From a virus: a stretch of 64,000 nt of DNA. This document shows, piece after piece, positions 6,713-28,609 of the stretch. A model generated the notes under the pieces. The model was not told the DNA's origin, searched no databases, and saw only the letters and a program-made list of their open reading frames with translations. The stretch covers positions 1-64,000 of IMG/VR virus record IMGVR_UViG_3300029893_000001, one strand, 5' to 3'. The first letter of the stretch is position 1. Each line of letters begins with the position of its first letter. A program made the translations under genes and the position numbers.

Positions 6713-7438
6713 TCAGATGTCCAGGCTGTCCAGGAGCCCGTCGAGGTCTTCCGAAGAAAGGTCCTCGGACCCGTTCTCCTCCGAAGCCTCCTCCGTCTCC
6801 TCCTCGTCCGAGGTGAGCGCTGCGACCGCCGCCGCGACCTCGTCCTCGTCCTCCGAGGCCTCCTCGGTCTCTTCCTCCTCGGTCTCCTCCGAGGCCACCG
6901 CCTGAGCGGCCGGCTTCGAGGGGGCCGCCTTCGCCGGAGCGGCGGCGGGCGTCTCCTTCCGACGACCACGACGCTTCATCGGCGTGCCGTCCTGCTTCAC
7001 ACCGTAGGGCGCCAGCGGCCGACCATCGGCGTCCGTTCCGTACGGCGCGGTCTCCGAAACCGAACCCGGAACCTGAAGAGCCTCGATCTGCTCCTCCTTG
7101 ATCGTACGAACCTTCTTGGTGGGCCCCGCCGCCGGGGGCGTGGTCTTCGTCTTCGCGGGCGCCTGCCTGGCCTTCGCGGGGGCCGGAGCCGCGGGAGCGG
7201 CGGCGACCGGAGCCGCCCCGACCGGGATGCGCTCGAAGCTGAAGCCCTGCTCCTTCAGGGCGATGCGCAGGTTGCGGAGCGAAACCGCGAGCGGGTCGTT
7301 GGTCAGACGGCCCTCTCGGGCGAGCTGGTTGTTCAGCTCCGCGACGCGGTTCTCGATGACGGTGCTGAACGCACCCTCCAGCATCGCGGGAATCGGCTTC
7401 GGGGTGTGGGTGCGGGTCTGAGGCTTGGTCTTTGCCAT
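6713..7438 (-). CDS. Ala/Pro-rich protein with acidic C-terminal tail, 241 aa
   Basis: Single-gene operon between the motif at 7512-7530 and the terminator at 6642-6678. Residues 1-70 are a folded helical part (AELNNQLAREGRL), residues 75-115 an Ala/Pro/Lys linker, then a short region with APYG repeated (residues about 131 and 143), a basic KRRGRRK patch, and a long Glu/Asp/Ser tail. The isolated strong promoter and terminator suggest high expression. A DNA- or protein-binding role is plausible but not shown. Confidence 0.75.
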   Translation of the reverse strand: MAKTKPQTRTHTPKPIPAMLEGAFSTVIENRVAELNNQLAREGRLTNDPLAVSLRNLRIALKEQGFSFERIPVGAAPVAAAPAAPAPAKARQAPAKTKTTPPAAGPTKKVRTIKEEQIEALQVPGSVSETAPYGTDADGRPLAPYGVKQDGTPMKRRGRRKETPAAAPAKAAPSKPAAQAVASEETEEEETEEASEDEDEVAAAVAALTSDEEETEEASEENGSEDLSSEDLDGLLDSLDI

Positions 7439-11234: not shown

Positions 11235-11519
11235 CTACGCAATGGGACGAATGTTCTCTAGCGCAATAGGCCCTACTTCAAGGACGCCGCACTTAGGACA
11301 CATCTTGCCGTCGTATTTTTCAGCGCCTTCGTCCGGTTCGACCCATAAACCAATCTTGGTGGGATTGACTGGATCGTCGCCTCGAACGTGACGAACAGTT
11401 CCTTCGAAGCTGTGAAGTTCTGCTCCGAACTTCATTTGGGCCCCTGCGAGTGCCGCCGGCCCCGTGACATGGAGTCTCTCAACGTGGACTCTGGTACCTT
11501 TTGTGATGTAGGCTTCCAC
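11235..11519 (-). CDS. Hypothetical protein with CxxC, 94 aa
   Basis: A 94-residue beta-rich protein (MEAYITKGTRVHVERLHVTG) that looks like an SH3-like barrel (GTRVHVERL...FEGTVRHVRGDD...IGLWVEP). It also carries a single CPKC pair near residue 74. Ribosome binding site GAAGGAG precedes the ATG. Function unknown. Confidence 0.65.
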   Translation of the reverse strand: MEAYITKGTRVHVERLHVTGPAALAGAQMKFGAELHSFEGTVRHVRGDDPVNPTKIGLWVEPDEGAEKYDGKMCPKCGVLEVGPIALENIRPIA

Positions 11520-17533: not shown

Positions 17534-18094
17534 TTACTCCGGTAGCTTATCCGTTTTGCCCTGAAGGTAGCGAAGCAGGTCTACGCGACCAGAGTACAGT
17601 GCAGGAATCGTCTCGTTCCCGAGAAAGCGGTGAGCAAAGAAACGATGCCATCCATCCATGATCTCTGGAAGAGGATAGACGTTTCCGTAATGACAGTGGT
17701 TGTCGACCGAAATGGGATCTTCAAGAGACTCGGGGTTCTTGATGAGCCAAAGAATGCGGGCAGCGTGCCAAAAACGATCAGTGACTCGCGACGTTGCCAG
17801 GTCGTGTGATTCGTAGGCTCGAAGGTCTTCGATGTGGTCCTCGTCCACTTCTTCTACGTCCTGAAGAGTGAAGGGCGTATCACATCCCCATGGGTCGAGG
17901 TCCTCAGGAATGAATTCCAGTAGACGGGCCATCTTAAGGAGGTCTACCGTGTCGGCAAAACCTCTCTTAGCGTGCTCTTCTGAGAGGCCATGGTCTTGGA
18001 GAAAGCAGGCCAGGGCCAATTCATCAGTCTTCGCGTTCCGGTATCCCCATATAGGTCGACCGTCGACTACGACCTTGCAGTAGAATTTCGGCAT
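17534..18094 (-). CDS. ParB-like nuclease/sulfiredoxin-fold protein, 186 aa
   Basis: The segment IMDGWHRFFAHRFLGNETIP near residues 147-166 resembles the DGxHRxxAxxxLG motif of the ParB N-terminal domain superfamily, which includes CTP-binding switches, nucleases and kinases. The rest of the protein lacks the usual ParB helix-turn-helix. The family assignment rests on this one motif, so the activity is open. Confidence 0.55.
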   Translation of the reverse strand: MPKFYCKVVVDGRPIWGYRNAKTDELALACFLQDHGLSEEHAKRGFADTVDLLKMARLLEFIPEDLDPWGCDTPFTLQDVEEVDEDHIEDLRAYESHDLATSRVTDRFWHAARILWLIKNPESLEDPISVDNHCHYGNVYPLPEIMDGWHRFFAHRFLGNETIPALYSGRVDLLRYLQGKTDKLPE

Positions 18095-18432
18095 TCGGCC
18101 TCCAACATGTCGAGAAGGTATTCGTCGAAGCTTGCACGCCGGGCGATTTCTTCCCAGAGGGCCTCAAGAACCTTCTCGTTGGCTAGAATATCGTCTGCGA
18201 ATTTCTCGTTGAGGATGACTTCTCGATTCTTTTCGTCGTCCTTCCAGAGGAGTACGCGATCCTCGTCAAAGCGCTGAATTCTGGAGGGATTCTCACGGAA
18301 ATAGTTCCGTAGGAACTCGCATCGCTCCTGTCGTTGCTTCGCTCTCTTCTCCTGGTACTGTCGGCCCGACTGTTCGATGGCCTCCGCCCAGCCTTCAAGG
18401 CTTGACTTTTCTCGCTTAGGTGTGACGCTCAT
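18067..18432 (-). CDS. Hypothetical helical protein, 121 aa
   Basis: Start at 18432 (MSVTPKREKSSLEGWAEAIE), directly after the upstream gene. A charged, helix-rich protein (QEKRAKQRQERCEFLRNYFR) whose end overlaps the next gene by 28 bases. No family recognised. Confidence 0.6.
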   Translation of the reverse strand: MSVTPKREKSSLEGWAEAIEQSGRQYQEKRAKQRQERCEFLRNYFRENPSRIQRFDEDRVLLWKDDEKNREVILNEKFADDILANEKVLEALWEEIARRASFDEYLLDMLEAECRNSTARS

Positions 18433-18433
18433 G

Positions 18434-18649
18434 TCAGTCCTCCGAAAGTTCGGCGATGATCGTCCGTTCGGCCGAAAGGATGATCTCGACAAATCGATAG
18501 TCTTTGCCTCGCAGTTTCCACGTATAGGGAATGAACGTTTCGTAGTCTCTTCCCTCGAATTCAAAAGTGACACGACCGTCACCAGCCAGGCGAATGTCTG
18601 GCTCGATAGGCCGGCATGGAACATGGGTAGGAGGGTAGGAGTAATCCAT
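18434..18649 (-). CDS. Hypothetical protein, 71 aa
   Basis: Start at 18649 (MDYSYPPTHVPCRPIEPDIR), one base shared with the upstream stop. Beta-rich C-terminal part (RVTFEFEGRDYETFIPYTWK). No family recognised. Confidence 0.55.
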   Translation of the reverse strand: MDYSYPPTHVPCRPIEPDIRLAGDGRVTFEFEGRDYETFIPYTWKLRGKDYRFVEIILSAERTIIAELSED

Positions 18650-18921
18650 CACTTTTCCTCTGGAAAGGCAGAACGAAGACACCTCATGATGAGCTTCCAG
18701 ACGTTTGCTGATTTGCGTGGATAGTTCTCGACGTGACCTTCTCGAACAGCCCTCACACGACCACGTAGTGGATTCTCAGTCGTCCCCCGCCGACAAACTA
18801 CAGCCTTGTAGTTGCCTCTGACTTGTGTTCCTGATCCGTCGTTAGCGATGTACATTCGCCCGATCTCACGACGGCGTTCCTCGGACCCCAAAGGCCACAA
18901 TTCGATCTTGACAACAATCAT
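18649..18921 (-). CDS. Hypothetical basic protein, 90 aa
   Basis: A 90-residue basic beta-rich protein (MIVVKIELWPLGSEERRREI, then RMYIANDGSGT). The start shares its first base with the upstream stop. The IGxxxIANDGSGT pattern is one I have seen in small proteins of phages and bacteria without known role. Confidence 0.6.
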   Translation of the reverse strand: MIVVKIELWPLGSEERRREIGRMYIANDGSGTQVRGNYKAVVCRRGTTENPLRGRVRAVREGHVENYPRKSANVWKLIMRCLRSAFPEEK

Positions 18922-19253
18922 CAGTACATGCGTTTTAGATCGAACTCGATGTCCCAGTCTTCAGTGCTGGCCCAGCTTTCTTTCAGGAACTCTAGAAGGA
19001 CGCAGCGGGTGCAGCCCCGTCGGGAGTTGTTCGGATTCTCATCCGAACAAGATGTTCTCGTATGCGGAGTGATGGCCAGGAAAGCGTCAGATCGCTCCCG
19101 GATGACGGCAAACATGGCTTCCTTTGCCTCCCGTTCGCGCCGTTCGCGCTCTAGACGTTCGGCTTCTGCTTGCGCCTTCCGGGCCTGTTCACGCCGGTTT
19201 AGTTCGGCGTAAAGCTCTTCGTCAGATAGATCCTTGGGGTCCACCATGCTCAT
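18921..19253 (-). CDS. Coiled-coil protein with cysteine cluster, 110 aa
   Basis: Start at 19253 (MSMVDPKDLSDEELYAELNR). Residues 20-45 are a highly charged coiled coil (QARKAQAEAERLERERRERE); near residue 69 begins CSDENPNNSRRGCTRC, a possible zinc site. The gene begins inside the end of the DUF2829 gene. Confidence 0.6.
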   Translation of the reverse strand: MSMVDPKDLSDEELYAELNRREQARKAQAEAERLERERREREAKEAMFAVIRERSDAFLAITPHTRTSCSDENPNNSRRGCTRCVLLEFLKESWASTEDWDIEFDLKRMY

Positions 19254-19470
19254 CCTCCACAACTTCCCAGTCAGTCGCAAGAATCTGACACTGACTGGGC
19301 CGCCATTCCACATCCGGCCACTTGTCCGTGGGATCGCTAACTACAATCTGAGTAAACGGCCGACCCATTGGTGTTCGGAACTCGTGCATCACCAGGTACG
19401 ATGGTGCATGCTCGGGCCGGCGCACTCGCTTACCTTCCCGCATGTTCTGCAGCGCCTCGCTGAAATCCAC
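19222..19470 (-). CDS. DUF2829 (Tad2-like) protein, 82 aa
   Basis: GTG start at 19470 with ribosome binding site GGGAGGAA, three bases after the upstream stop. VDFSEALQNMREGKRVRRPE at the N-terminus and ILATDWEVVED at the C-terminus match the DUF2829 pattern (FSEAL..L..GK.V.R ... L..DWE). The DUF2829 family includes Tad2, a phage protein that binds the signalling nucleotide of the Thoeris defence system. Some members have no known anti-Thoeris activity, so this is a candidate only. It lies directly downstream of the AcrVA2-like gene, which supports a counter-defence island. Confidence 0.75.
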   Translation of the reverse strand: MDFSEALQNMREGKRVRRPEHAPSYLVMHEFRTPMGRPFTQIVVSDPTDKWPDVEWRPSQCQILATDWEVVEDEHGGPQGSI

Positions 19471-19472
19471 GG

Positions 19473-20555
19473 TTATTCCTCCCGATCCTTCGAAAGGACA
19501 TACGTGTGACCGTGAAGCGCCGTATCGAGATCCTTGTGCCTCACATGAGGCGCAATCCAAATGATTTTCCGTAACTCGCGCCCAGGTCCGTAGGCTTGCC
19601 GTCGCCAATGTCCACGCACCAGGCTCTTATAGGCAACCGAACGAGTGTCTCCGGTCCGCAGAGCTTCTCGCTCTTCGCGGCTCATCTTTTGGCGGCTACC
19701 AACGACGTGCAAACGAGTGGCTTGTAGCTTACGACGCCTCTCCTGTGCCTTCCTGCCCTTCTTTCCCTTCAGCTTGTTGATCTGAAGAATCGCAGGCTGG
19801 ATAACATCAGGGTCCGGGCTGGATAGATAGAGGCAAAGATTTGCCACGAACTGAGCAAAAAACAGCGACGTTTCCGTCCACGTCAACTCAGTCCCGTCCG
19901 GCCTACGTGCTTGAACCTTGGACGGGTAACGGTTAAGCAGCGCCGCTTCTGCGAGGTCGAGCCCAGGGACAAGCGGAAGAGAGAATGTTAGCGCAGCGTC
20001 ATCGGACGCCGTTTTGCTGGCTCGGTTCGGTTCGCCATACACCGCCATAGCAAGACGTGGGAATTGCTTTTCCCAGACGCCGCGTGCCACGAGGATCATC
20101 GTACAGTCATGCCATCCGGTGTCGTCGCTCCAAATCTCGATGATACCACGAGGAATGGTAACGACGAAAGCTTCGAACGGCAGATGAAGGTCTTCGACTG
20201 TAAGACCACGAAGATCTGTAGCAGCGAGTCGAAGTGCTAGCGGTTCGGAAACCTCGAAGATGTTGGGGCTCGAAGAGACTGCGAGAATCTTACGAGCAAT
20301 CCATCGCATGATAACGGTGACGACACCGCTACGGATTCCGATTTCTCGTTCGATAGCGTGAGGACCTTCAGCCTGTAGCATCTCGACAGGACTCGGATAA
20401 TCAAGGGCACCTCCTCCCTTGATTTCAGCCTCCGCTGCCGCCGTGCTAAGCTGAACGTCAAGCACAGTGCGGGCTAGGGGTTTACCAGCGCGAAAGCGCC
20501 GCTCGGCCTCTTCGAGCCGAGCAAGCGCTTTTTCCATGTCGAATTTGTCAGGCAC
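19473..20555 (-). CDS. AcrVA2-like family protein, 360 aa
   Basis: The C-terminal part has an alpha-helical segment FVANLCLYLSSPDPDV followed by a basic linker and VRGHWRRQAYGPGRELRKII, then WIAPHVR. This order (LC.Y..S.(N/D)PD, basic linker, GHWR...G.....(R/W)W..P) resembles what I remember of AcrVA2, an anti-CRISPR that lowers Cas12a levels, and of its widespread phage and plasmid homologues. Most homologues are untested. The similarity is from memory and unquantified. If correct, the phage would carry both a Cas12-like effector and an anti-Cas12-type protein. Confidence 0.55.
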   Translation of the reverse strand: MPDKFDMEKALARLEEAERRFRAGKPLARTVLDVQLSTAAAEAEIKGGGALDYPSPVEMLQAEGPHAIEREIGIRSGVVTVIMRWIARKILAVSSSPNIFEVSEPLALRLAATDLRGLTVEDLHLPFEAFVVTIPRGIIEIWSDDTGWHDCTMILVARGVWEKQFPRLAMAVYGEPNRASKTASDDAALTFSLPLVPGLDLAEAALLNRYPSKVQARRPDGTELTWTETSLFFAQFVANLCLYLSSPDPDVIQPAILQINKLKGKKGRKAQERRRKLQATRLHVVGSRQKMSREEREALRTGDTRSVAYKSLVRGHWRRQAYGPGRELRKIIWIAPHVRHKDLDTALHGHTYVLSKDREE

Positions 20556-24421: not shown

Positions 24422-24802
24422 TCAGGCGTTCTTTAGGCTAACGATTCGCACGTTTCGGCCTATGCCCTTGAGCCCTTCGTTGCCCCCACCCCTCGCACGG
24501 GCCCCCGTGGACGTGAAGTACGCAGAGTTTTGAGCTACACGTGCGGGAAATCTTGCGTCTGCGATGTACACGTTGTCCCAAGTGTTCGCAGTGGCTTCTC
24601 GGATCACTCTGCACTTGAAACCAGCACAGACAAGACCAGTAACAGTATCCATCACGCAAGCATCTAGATTGATGCCGCAGACAGTAACGATGTTACCGTG
24701 CCGCTTCCGGTGAAGGGCCTCACGAACTTCGACTGCACCATTATCTTGGCGCTTCTTCACCAGCGATAGTTTGGCGTATCGTCCGATTGCTTTTTGCAGC
24801 AA
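24422..24802 (-). pseudogene. Isochorismatase-like hydrolase, N-terminus missing
   Basis: The segment VTVCGINLDACVMDTVTGLV matches the C-terminal half of cysteine hydrolases of the isochorismatase family (V.G...D.CV..T...A), with the cysteine as nucleophile; LVKKRQD just before it fits the conserved lysine region. The normal first 80-100 residues with the catalytic Asp are absent. An in-frame TAG lies just upstream of the only possible (TTG) start. The break coincides with the left edge of the GC-rich foreign patch, so the gene was probably truncated by that rearrangement. Confidence 0.5.
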
Positions 24803-24943
24803 TGGTGATGTCGGCTACTTGCCGTTCGACAGCGAAGCGCGGACTTAATGTCCGCCTTTCGCATCATTCTGGCAAGTGGGCTCGCATCTCGACTTGCCAA
24901 TCGCGGTCGTTACGCGTACCTTTGATCCGCGTACCGCTTCGAG

Positions 24944-25516
24944 ATGGCAACCATGCGATCCGCCGAGTTCTTCGCCACCCACCCCGTGTTCACGCACGAG
25001 GAGTACCTCGCGGCACGCGGAGGGCGTGGGGACCGGAGCCCTCGGACGGCCGACAGCCTGCTCACCCGCCATGCCGCCGCCGGAAGGATCCTACGCGTCC
25101 GCCGGGGGCTGTACGCGTCCGTACCGGCCGGCGCGACGCCGGACACGTTCCAGGTGGATCCGTTCCTGCTGGCGACCAAGCTCGCCCCCGATGCGGCCGT
25201 CGCCTACCACGCCGCGCTGCAGTTCCGGGGCAAGACGTACTCGGTGTGGCACCGCTTCACCGTCCTCACTCGCAGCCACGTGCGTCCGCTGACCTTCCAG
25301 GGGAGCGAGTTCGTGGCGGTCCGGCCGCCGCGCGCCCTCAAAGGGCTTCCAGATCTCGGCGGCGGCATCACCTCGGAGCCGCACGCCGGCGGGACCGTCC
25401 GCGTGACGACGTTCGAGCGTACCCGAGCGGCCAGGCCCACGCGCTGTGCGGTTCGAGCACGCCCGGGATGCACACGCGCACGCGGCCGAGGCCCTCGGGG
25501 TCCTTCCGGTGGGTGA
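24944..25516 (+). pseudogene. AbiEi-type antitoxin/regulator, C-terminus missing
   Basis: A winged-helix start ([20 protein letters not shown] followed by RGLYASVP) and [20 protein letters not shown] are typical of AbiEi-family type IV antitoxins, which repress and neutralise AbiEii nucleotidyltransferase toxins. The family homology ends at VRVTTFERT (about 25,423), exactly where members normally continue with L-V-D; the remaining frame is Arg/Pro-rich nonsense. No AbiEii partner follows. GC content is far above the surrounding phage. A fragment of host or other mobile DNA. Confidence 0.7.
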
Positions 25517-25595
25517 CGTAGCCGACGTACATCCCGAACCGCCGGGTGTCGTGGGCCTCGATGTCGTCGTCGAACTGGCTGAAGGACATGCTCAC
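25368..25595 (-). pseudogene. Baseplate gpV/gp5-like OB-fold protein, truncated
   Basis: After [20 protein letters not shown] the frame reads [20 protein letters not shown] followed by [18 protein letters not shown], the N-terminal OB-fold pattern of phage baseplate or VgrG-like hub proteins (G.V....DP.G.GRVRV..PG......WA.P). It breaks off after about 58 residues at the junction near 25,423. Just upstream (25596-25655) is the C-terminal end of another gene ([15 protein letters not shown]...SVAR, stop TGA), so the piece comes from a tail operon. Confidence 0.65.
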
Positions 25596-25605
25596 CTCGC
25601 AACGC

Positions 25606-25968
25606 TCATCCCGGCCTCCGGGTCCTCGGCGCCGATGGGCCGGCCGTCGCGCCGGTACTCGGAGTCAAGAATCCTTTGCCTCGGCCGTTTTCGTACGGCA
25701 CTGGAGTCTTGAATTGGCCTGCCGTCGCGTCGAGAACTCTATCGGTACGGCGGTGTTTCAAGAACCAGTGAGGCTCCCCTTCATGCCATATGAAGCACGG
25801 TTTCCATTCGTCTCCGAGGAGGTGGAATAACACCTCACTCGCAACATAACAGTGCCCAGCTAGCGGGTTGGGGTTTCCTCTGTATGGGGGTTGACGCAGG
25901 TCATCGGTCAGGAAGGTTTGAACCTTCCTGACCAATGCCTCTGTTGTCAGCCTATGCAGATGCGGCAA
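25606..25968 (-). pseudogene. Conserved phage protein with altered C-terminus
   Basis: The first 103 residues, with PLAGHCYVASEVLFHLLG, PHWFLKHR and VLDATAGQF...[12 protein letters not shown], match a family I recognise from phages and bacteria (a small protein with conserved Cys-Tyr and His, possibly a papain-like fold). After GFLTP the usual end is lost and 17 residues of GC-rich frame follow. The last phage-derived codon is near 25,659. The core may still fold. Confidence 0.55.
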
Positions 25969-26417: not shown

Positions 26418-28490
26418 TCAGATACCGACGTGGATGTTAAAGATGCGCTGCTTCTTGCCCTGCTGGGCGCGGACGAGGAACGTGTCCTTCTTAGTGGAAG
26501 AAAAGCCAAGACCAGCCAGGTGCCCATCCGTGGGGCGGCACTTGGTCTTGTCGCCGATGACCTCGAACACCTTCCGGTGCTCTTCAAGACGCGGGTGGAG
26601 GAACTCGTTGTAGAACCCGCGCATGTCCTCGTCGCTCTTCGCGCCCTCCAGGACAAAGAAGGTGTGCTTGTTCCCCACGGCGTTGTCACCCCAGTAGTTC
26701 GGGCTGAGCATCACCATGTTAACCTTGACGTACTGCTCGGTCGTCAGGCCCCACTTCTCCTGAGAGATGTTCGAGGCCGTGATGCCGGAGTCGCCCGGCT
26801 CGATGCGCTCGATGACGCCGTTCCTCATGTGCAGCGTCACCACCGTGACATTCTGATGGTTGCGGACCGGCTTGTTGTACGAGTAGTGCGTGAGCTTGCC
26901 CTCGCTCTCCACCTCGATGACGAACCCGGGGTTGCTGCTCTCGCGGAAGGTGTAGTTATTCACGACGACTCGGTACGGCCCATCCGGCGGCTGGGTCGCC
27001 CATACCACGTTCTCGACGGGCTCGCGCGTCGTGCCGCGGCCGGCGTTCATGTCGACGTCGAGGGTGCCGCCTGTCCAGCCACGCTTGTTCCCGAAGTAGA
27101 TGTGGTCACTCAGGCCCCGCATTCCGCGCCCCGAGGGCTCGTGGATGTGGAGGTCGAGATCATCGTAGTTGAACCACGACAGCGAGACCCGGAGGATCGC
27201 ACCATCCACCTTGCCGCCGGCCTTCTTCACGCGCTCCTTGATCGAGTCGGCGACGTTGCCACCATAGGACCACGCGAAGTCGTTGGTCCAGCGGAAGAGC
27301 TGCTTCGGTTCCGGATACACTGGCGCCGTCAGGGCCATCAGGTTCCCGAGGTGCTTCCCGGTGAAGAAGACTTCCATGGCCTGCGTCTTGGGAAGCACGC
27401 TGGTCATGAAGTCTTCGAGCGAGATGTCCTCTGCGCGCTCTTCGTCCTTTGTGTGGCTTTGGGCCGTTGCCCTGGCGTGCTTCATGAGCACGTCGCCGAT
27501 GCCGCCCTTCATCAGGGGGCGAGCAGCACCATCGACCCATTTCACGTCGTTCACCGACACATCGCCGATGACAGCGAACCGACGCTCCAGAGCCTGTTCA
27601 AGGCCTAGTGCTTCGATGGTTTCCATCGCCTTCTTAACCATTCCAGGCGTGATGAGGGCCGTCGTCCGCTTATAATTCTGTGGAGCGACCTTCGTCTCGA
27701 AGCTACGCACCGCACGTTCAAGCTCCTGACCATCAGAGAGATCCTGAACTAGAGTGCCGATGACAGTATTACGAAACCTGGCAGCAGGACTGCCAGCATT
27801 CGCCCACGTGAAGAGCAAACGCTCTGCAGCCTTCTTCGATAGGAAATCGCGCTGCATCTTCTGGAATTCGACAACGGCACGCTTGTGTTCCTCGCCGCGA
27901 TACAAGCTGTTGCTCTCGATAAGAGAGAGGACGGTGCTGACGGCATCGGGCGTGAGTTCGAGAAGACCACGCTCGAAGACATGGACCGTGGTCCGGTAAT
28001 TTCCGCGATCGGCGTCCGGAGTAGCGGAACGGAAGCCATGCGGGATCACCTCCGTATAGAAGTGCTCCCAGGTCAGGGCCTTATGCGACTCCTTGTCGAG
28101 CGAGTGCGACTGCTGCGCGCCGAACTGCGTCTCATTCTTCCCGACACGGAAGATGTCGCGAATGCCCACCGAATTTACGGCGTTCCGAAGCGCCGCAGCG
28201 ACTGTGGCATAGTGCTCAGGGGCACGCTCTGCTGCGTGATCCCAGATAGTACGCACCTTTCCATTCGAGAGGGTAACCACACAGCCGGCACGGCGGATGA
28301 AATTTCGACAGCACGAGCAGTCATGCTCGGTGCGCACCTTGAAAATGGGGTCGGTCCCCTCCGGGAAGGACGCCAGGTATGTCGACCAGAGGGCGTCACC
28401 GTCCAAATCTGCGACGAAGACGGCGTTGTTCTTCACGATGTCCTGGAAAGAGGCGGCGACTATGCGAGCGAACGCAGAGAAAAGAGTCAT
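26418..28490 (-). CDS. Large protein with Cys motif and DUF2135-like domain, 691 aa
   Basis: Start at 28490 (MTLFSAFARIVAASFQDIVK) with AGGAAACG upstream; the earlier in-frame ATG overlaps the small upstream gene. Residues 56-64 read HDCSCCRNF, a possible metal site. The middle is helical. Residues 438-550 (SWFNYDDLDLH, GGTLDVDMNAG, ENVVWATQPPDGPYRVVVNN) look like a DUF2135-type beta sandwich. Proteins with this layout occur in phages and bacteria beside the 25981-type gene. No activity is known to me. Confidence 0.75.
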   Translation of the reverse strand: MTLFSAFARIVAASFQDIVKNNAVFVADLDGDALWSTYLASFPEGTDPIFKVRTEHDCSCCRNFIRRAGCVVTLSNGKVRTIWDHAAERAPEHYATVAAALRNAVNSVGIRDIFRVGKNETQFGAQQSHSLDKESHKALTWEHFYTEVIPHGFRSATPDADRGNYRTTVHVFERGLLELTPDAVSTVLSLIESNSLYRGEEHKRAVVEFQKMQRDFLSKKAAERLLFTWANAGSPAARFRNTVIGTLVQDLSDGQELERAVRSFETKVAPQNYKRTTALITPGMVKKAMETIEALGLEQALERRFAVIGDVSVNDVKWVDGAARPLMKGGIGDVLMKHARATAQSHTKDEERAEDISLEDFMTSVLPKTQAMEVFFTGKHLGNLMALTAPVYPEPKQLFRWTNDFAWSYGGNVADSIKERVKKAGGKVDGAILRVSLSWFNYDDLDLHIHEPSGRGMRGLSDHIYFGNKRGWTGGTLDVDMNAGRGTTREPVENVVWATQPPDGPYRVVVNNYTFRESSNPGFVIEVESEGKLTHYSYNKPVRNHQNVTVVTLHMRNGVIERIEPGDSGITASNISQEKWGLTTEQYVKVNMVMLSPNYWGDNAVGNKHTFFVLEGAKSDEDMRGFYNEFLHPRLEEHRKVFEVIGDKTKCRPTDGHLAGLGFSSTKKDTFLVRAQQGKKQRIFNIHVGI

Positions 28491-28501
28491 GGTTTCGTTT
28501 C

Positions 28502-28609
28502 CTATTCGCACATTTCGGGCGTGAGCTTCACGAGTTTGTTTACGGAGCGGTGAGTTGCCACCCATTCATCGTCGACCGTGTATAGGTAGGCATATTCCCC
28601 GAATTCCAT
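28502..28609 (-). CDS. Small hypothetical protein, 35 aa
   Basis: ATG at 28609 after GGAGACAGACAC. Product MEFGEYAYLYTVDDEWVATH plus a short tail ending LTPEMCE. It fills the gap between the terminator at 28627-28679 and the large gene; composition and spacing fit a real gene, but it is short. Confidence 0.5.
   Translation of the reverse strand: MEFGEYAYLYTVDDEWVATHRSVNKLVKLTPEMCE

Follow-up and report, generated by a model that had tools for sequence, protein, structure and literature searches.

How did a short GC-rich stretch that joins part of an antitoxin gene to part of a phage tail operon come to lie among the genes of a jumbo phage, and could it still serve a function there? The window analysed here covers the first 64 kb of a virus record of 392,328 bp; the record was read as stretches over its first 196 kb. 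The preliminary description of this locus had offered two alternatives, non-homologous recombination with host or prophage DNA and an artefact of library or assembly, and both survive the analysis presented below. What is new relative to that description is that, by sequence comparison, both halves of the patch are traced to a single prophage locus, from which they were joined in inverted orientation.

The abrupt GC shift reported at this position was evident again, since only two segments of the 64-kb window are strongly GC-shifted, 6,760-7,424 and 24,973-25,655. The second of these, with a GC of 0.728, is the log-odds core of a patch of 865 bp (24,797-25,661) that is foreign to the record, as its core GC is 0.73 versus 0.55 and its tetranucleotide signature also differs. 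The segment at 6,760-7,424 was rejected as a further patch because it falls within one complete ORF (6,713-7,438) that has an RBS-like sequence upstream and a terminator-like hairpin of its own downstream; its matches to PRO4, the donor genome described below, were only short and at chance level. This GC-rich ORF encodes a protein of 241 aa, rich in Ala, Pro and Glu, for which no Pfam or PHROGs family match was found. Another stretch, near 27 kb, was rejected because it is part of a conserved phage gene of 715 aa (phrog_1735; window 26,418-28,565). Relatives of the phrog_1735 protein occur in 57 viral contigs at 27-83% identity, and in most of these contigs the next gene is phrog_2018.

Origin and structure of the patch

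Comparison of the AbiEi fragment with the genome collection identified contig CAADGB010000249.1, from the metagenome-assembled genome (MAG) of the uncultured delta proteobacterium PRO4, at 100% protein identity over residues 1-160. When this MAG was searched with the whole patch, both halves matched the same 54,389-bp contig, and the patch could be resolved into two donor fragments of 628 and 240 bp. The donor and its homologues fit the earlier guess of a Myxococcota source. A direct DNA search of public phages gave short chance-level matches only, and a literature search on the PRO4 sample found no paper.

The exact donor match begins at 24,797, and the sequence upstream is unrelated to the donor. 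The first piece (24,797-25,424, plus strand) corresponds to contig positions 19552 to 18925, read on the contig's minus strand, and comprises 147 bp upstream of AbiEi followed by AbiEi codons 1-160 of 270. The left edge previously placed at 24,803, with a junction at 24,930, therefore had to be moved to 24,797, with the 147 bp of lower-GC donor DNA belonging to the patch; the patch begins well before the visible GC shift because the region upstream of AbiEi is less GC-rich. The tail-to-tail fusion with microhomology described at about 25,423 was recovered at 25,422-25,424, where the two pieces are joined inverted and the donor stretches of both match through a shared 3-bp CCC. Since 8% of random joins of such GC-rich DNA reach an overlap of at least 3 bp (chance 0.08), this overlap alone is not evidence and does not discriminate between the readings considered below. 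The second piece (25,422-25,661, minus strand) corresponds to contig positions 11451 to 11690 on the plus strand, and carries codons 1-58 of 196 of a gpV-like baseplate spike gene (25,422-25,595, minus strand; Phage_base_V/phrog_430) and the last 22 codons plus stop of a gpD-like gene (25,592-25,661, minus strand; Phage_GPD in the donor). The two reading frames overlap by 4 bp in the patch, as they do in the donor. Alignment to the donor also sharpened the right junction, formerly put at 25,657, to 25,661/25,662, where the donor match ends and the reading of a YunG-like phage gene stops directly after a conserved GFLT. In a base-level comparison with the PRO4 contig, no donor match continued beyond 24,797-25,661 at either outer breakpoint, and nothing more of the 20-kb donor stretch was found in the virus record.

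Differences from PRO4 are few. The first piece has 2 mismatches in 628 bp, both upstream of the AbiEi ORF, so that AbiEi codons 1-160 are unchanged, and the second has 5 in 240 bp, four synonymous and one missense. This distribution, free of decay, points to strain polymorphism and a recent capture, and it resembles what purifying selection leaves among strains of the donor. The earlier proposal that the patch, if real, is recent gains support from the approximately 99% identity to the PRO4 prophage and from the lack of any frameshift or stop inside either fragment.

Judging by its genes, the PRO4 contig carries a myophage-like prophage, with terminase, portal, prohead protease, tube (gp19), sheath, T4-type baseplate, tape-measure, gpD, gpV, baseplate J and tail-I proteins, an amidase and an integrase-family gene. 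In this donor the two captured pieces lie approximately 7.2 kb apart, with AbiEi and gpV on the same strand. AbiEi (18593-19405) is followed by AbiEii (17604-18593), both inside the tail module. Together with a neighbouring XRE-type gene, the pair has the tube gene on one side and the T4-type baseplate gene on the other, and is a candidate defence cassette. PRO4 is a metagenome bin, and the two pieces could in principle be adjacent in the true donor if its contig were misassembled. However, neither gene is interrupted at the junction points in PRO4 (AbiEi has 270 aa and is followed by AbiEii; gpV has 196 aa and overlaps gpD), and homologues of AbiEi from other MAGs run past the breakpoint, which makes misassembly of the donor hardly credible. 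Moreover, the co-occurrence of the ends of the 7.2-kb stretch in the phage record is independent support for their natural linkage.

Coding capacity of the patch

The assignment of the first piece to AbiEi, and its truncation, were borne out by a PADLOC AbiEi match (E=1.2e-44) that covers profile positions 1-155 of 265. The ORF stays open for 190 aa, of which the 160 AbiEi codons are followed by approximately 30 out-of-frame residues that replace the C-terminal part, and an intact antitoxin with both wHTH and C-terminal domain is not present. Across all 392 kb of the record, no match to the AbiEii toxin (PF08843) reached E<=1. The tail piece is truncated and bears the end of the preceding gene, as had been described; a complete gpV/gpD operon is absent, with gpV codons 1-58 and the last 22 codons of gpD being all that is present.

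The unchanged AbiEi codons 1-160 and the open 190-aa frame could suggest functional cargo, in the form of an AbiEi-derived DNA-binding protein, an antitoxin without toxin, that acts as an anti-AbiE counter-defence gene. We regard this as very improbable, as the C-terminal part of AbiEi is gone and replaced by out-of-frame residues, no AbiEii is found in the record, and neither the attached tail fragment nor the flanking genes are whole; a recent capture accounts for the unchanged sequence. From its reading frames, the patch is likely a non-functional composite scar. However the patch arose, AbiEi at this locus should not enter counts of phage defence or counter-defence genes, nor be annotated as a phage AbiE system.

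Phage flanks and routes of formation

Truncated phage genes had been noted on both sides of the patch, and both truncations were corroborated. To the left, an isochorismatase-like (cysteine hydrolase) gene retains only its C-terminal part (24,422-24,796, minus strand; Pfam PF00857, E=1.9e-5, profile 107-150 of 175 only). To the right, the YunG-like gene (25,662-25,968, minus strand; phrog_12251, E=9.7e-14) is cut after GKGFLT and lacks the conserved C-terminal tail of PSKRAKEL type, where its relatives run on with EPSKRAKELLRR-type tails. The missing N-terminal half of the isochorismatase-like gene was not found elsewhere in the record. A nicotinamidase-like match at about 74 kb was considered as this half, displaced by a scrambled assembly, and rejected, being a separate and complete nicotinamidase/cysteine-hydrolase-like gene (record about 73.5-74.3 kb) with a possible role in NAD metabolism. 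As both edge genes are cut, the locus has lost phage DNA in addition to gaining donor DNA. The two flanks appear to belong to a single phage. Their tetranucleotide correlation with each other is 0.91, against 0.42-0.43 with the patch, and two 195-kb relatives (L070 and L071) hold homologues of genes from both flanks in the same order.

We give an even chance, by judgement and not by computation, to the reading that the patch arose in vivo by illegitimate recombination, when a broken phage genome was patched with prophage fragments. In the most likely course of such an event, the phage, which would infect a PRO4-like host, suffered a genome break or a fork collapse inside an infected lysogen. 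The gap would then have been closed by homology-independent joining or template switching, with linear pieces of the host/prophage chromosome as partners; virulent phages generate such pieces by degrading host DNA. Two prophage fragments would thereby have been joined inverted to each other and to the broken jumbo-phage ends, with loss of the phage DNA between the isochorismatase-like and YunG-like genes. In agreement with illegitimate recombination, the donor is non-homologous, 3 bp are shared at the middle junction and the outer junctions show no donor match past the breakpoint. In addition, the sequence exits the phage, crosses two donor pieces and re-enters the same genome, and sequence is missing locally on either side, the outcome expected of a two-ended break repair. 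Virulent phages have been proposed to take up prophage DNA during degradation of the host chromosome (PMC8136500), and microhomology-mediated template switching yields multi-piece, inverted arrangements with junctions of 2-5 bp (PMC2621351). The record encodes an ATP-dependent DNA ligase, which speaks for an in vivo event; it encodes no recognisable Ku homologue, which counts against one, as does the expectation that functionless captured fragments should rarely become consensus. No second copy of the middle junction, other copy of the left flank or empty site was found in the viral_contigs collection, outside which the record and its near copies may lie.

The same middle junction is what an in vitro chimera would produce, if template switching during multiple displacement amplification (MDA) or low-input library PCR had linked strands in the order phage, donor, inverted donor, phage, and the chimera had then been retained as the consensus by the assembler at a place of poor true coverage. 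We place this, again as judgement and not as a computed figure, a little below even. Of 475 MDA junctions, 406 had an inverted arrangement, and in 337 of these the segments lay less than 10 kb apart, usually with at least 2 bp of complementarity (PMC1855051). The middle junction has this commonest form (PMC1855051), as it joins contig positions 18925 and 11451, which are 7.2 kb from each other, on opposite strands through a 3-bp CCC overlap, and the intervening sequence is missing. Every junction truncates genes, and coherent cargo is absent. However, for a chimera of this kind the strand would have to switch between phage and donor twice and come back to the phage genome it had left, nearby and in the same direction, and three independent chimeras would rarely leave and rejoin the same phage locus. 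Furthermore, there are no phage-phage inverted repeats of at least 45 bp in the window, and a k-mer misjoin would need real chimeric molecules, as the 3-bp junctions are too short.

A second GC-rich patch also enters this comparison. In the first 196 kb of the record, positions 118,073-118,441 have a GC of 0.68 and an ORF of their own of 105 aa, and are flanked by a truncated HNH endonuclease gene (phrog_2255, profile 143-176 of 211) and another apparently cut ORF. The GC and the truncated neighbour point to foreign DNA, although no convincing donor was found in PRO4, four other MAGs, 284 genomes of its phylum, phages, plasmids or viral contigs. This patch suggests that the scar-forming process is not unique; by the same token, a second patch so similar to the first could mean that the library was chimera-prone. 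The surrounding part of the record (84-164 kb) contains about 36 tRNAs, one of them with anticodon CTA (a possible amber suppressor), and a tmRNA; despite the CTA-anticodon tRNA, TAG still serves as stop in 24 of 120 long ORFs of the jumbo phage. Overall, the return to the same locus favours the in vivo event, and with no second observation of the junction and with the 118-kb patch an artefact is nearly as likely.

Significance and comparison with known systems

A wider proposal, that the jumbo phage heals genome breaks by capturing scraps of degraded host/prophage chromosome and so accumulates multi-piece filler scars, is conceivable but unlikely. The examined half of the record has one candidate at 25 kb and another at 118 kb, so that such scars could record host and breakage history. 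If the patch formed in vivo, it documents at base level how prophage fragments closed a break in a large phage genome, and it points to PRO4-like Myxococcota as a probable host group. If it formed in vitro, public jumbo-phage records can contain host/prophage chimeras, in which gene-calling programs would see a phage-borne AbiEi and a tail gene. As biology the patch is ordinary; its use lies in the clue to donor and host and in the warning about assembly.

The first piece corresponds to the N-terminal part of an antitoxin of the AbiEi/AbiEii type IV toxin-antitoxin kind, but it is cut at codon 160 and the toxin gene is absent, leaving a remnant and not a system. As in the mosaicism between virulent phages and prophages (PMC8136500), non-homologous temperate-phage DNA of different GC and high identity would recently have been joined into a large phage genome. 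Whole genes moved in those cases, whereas here two broken, inverted fragments replace phage DNA. Microhomology-mediated break-induced replication (MMBIR) and template-switch insertions (PMC2621351) likewise combine short overlaps, inversion and pieces from elsewhere at a repaired break, but they are known from cellular chromosomes, and here an overlap can be measured at the middle junction only. MDA chimeras (PMC1855051) share with the patch the inverted segments less than 10 kb apart, the overlap of a few bases and the missing intervening sequence, and they differ in that the molecule carrying the patch also exits and re-enters a second genome at one locus.
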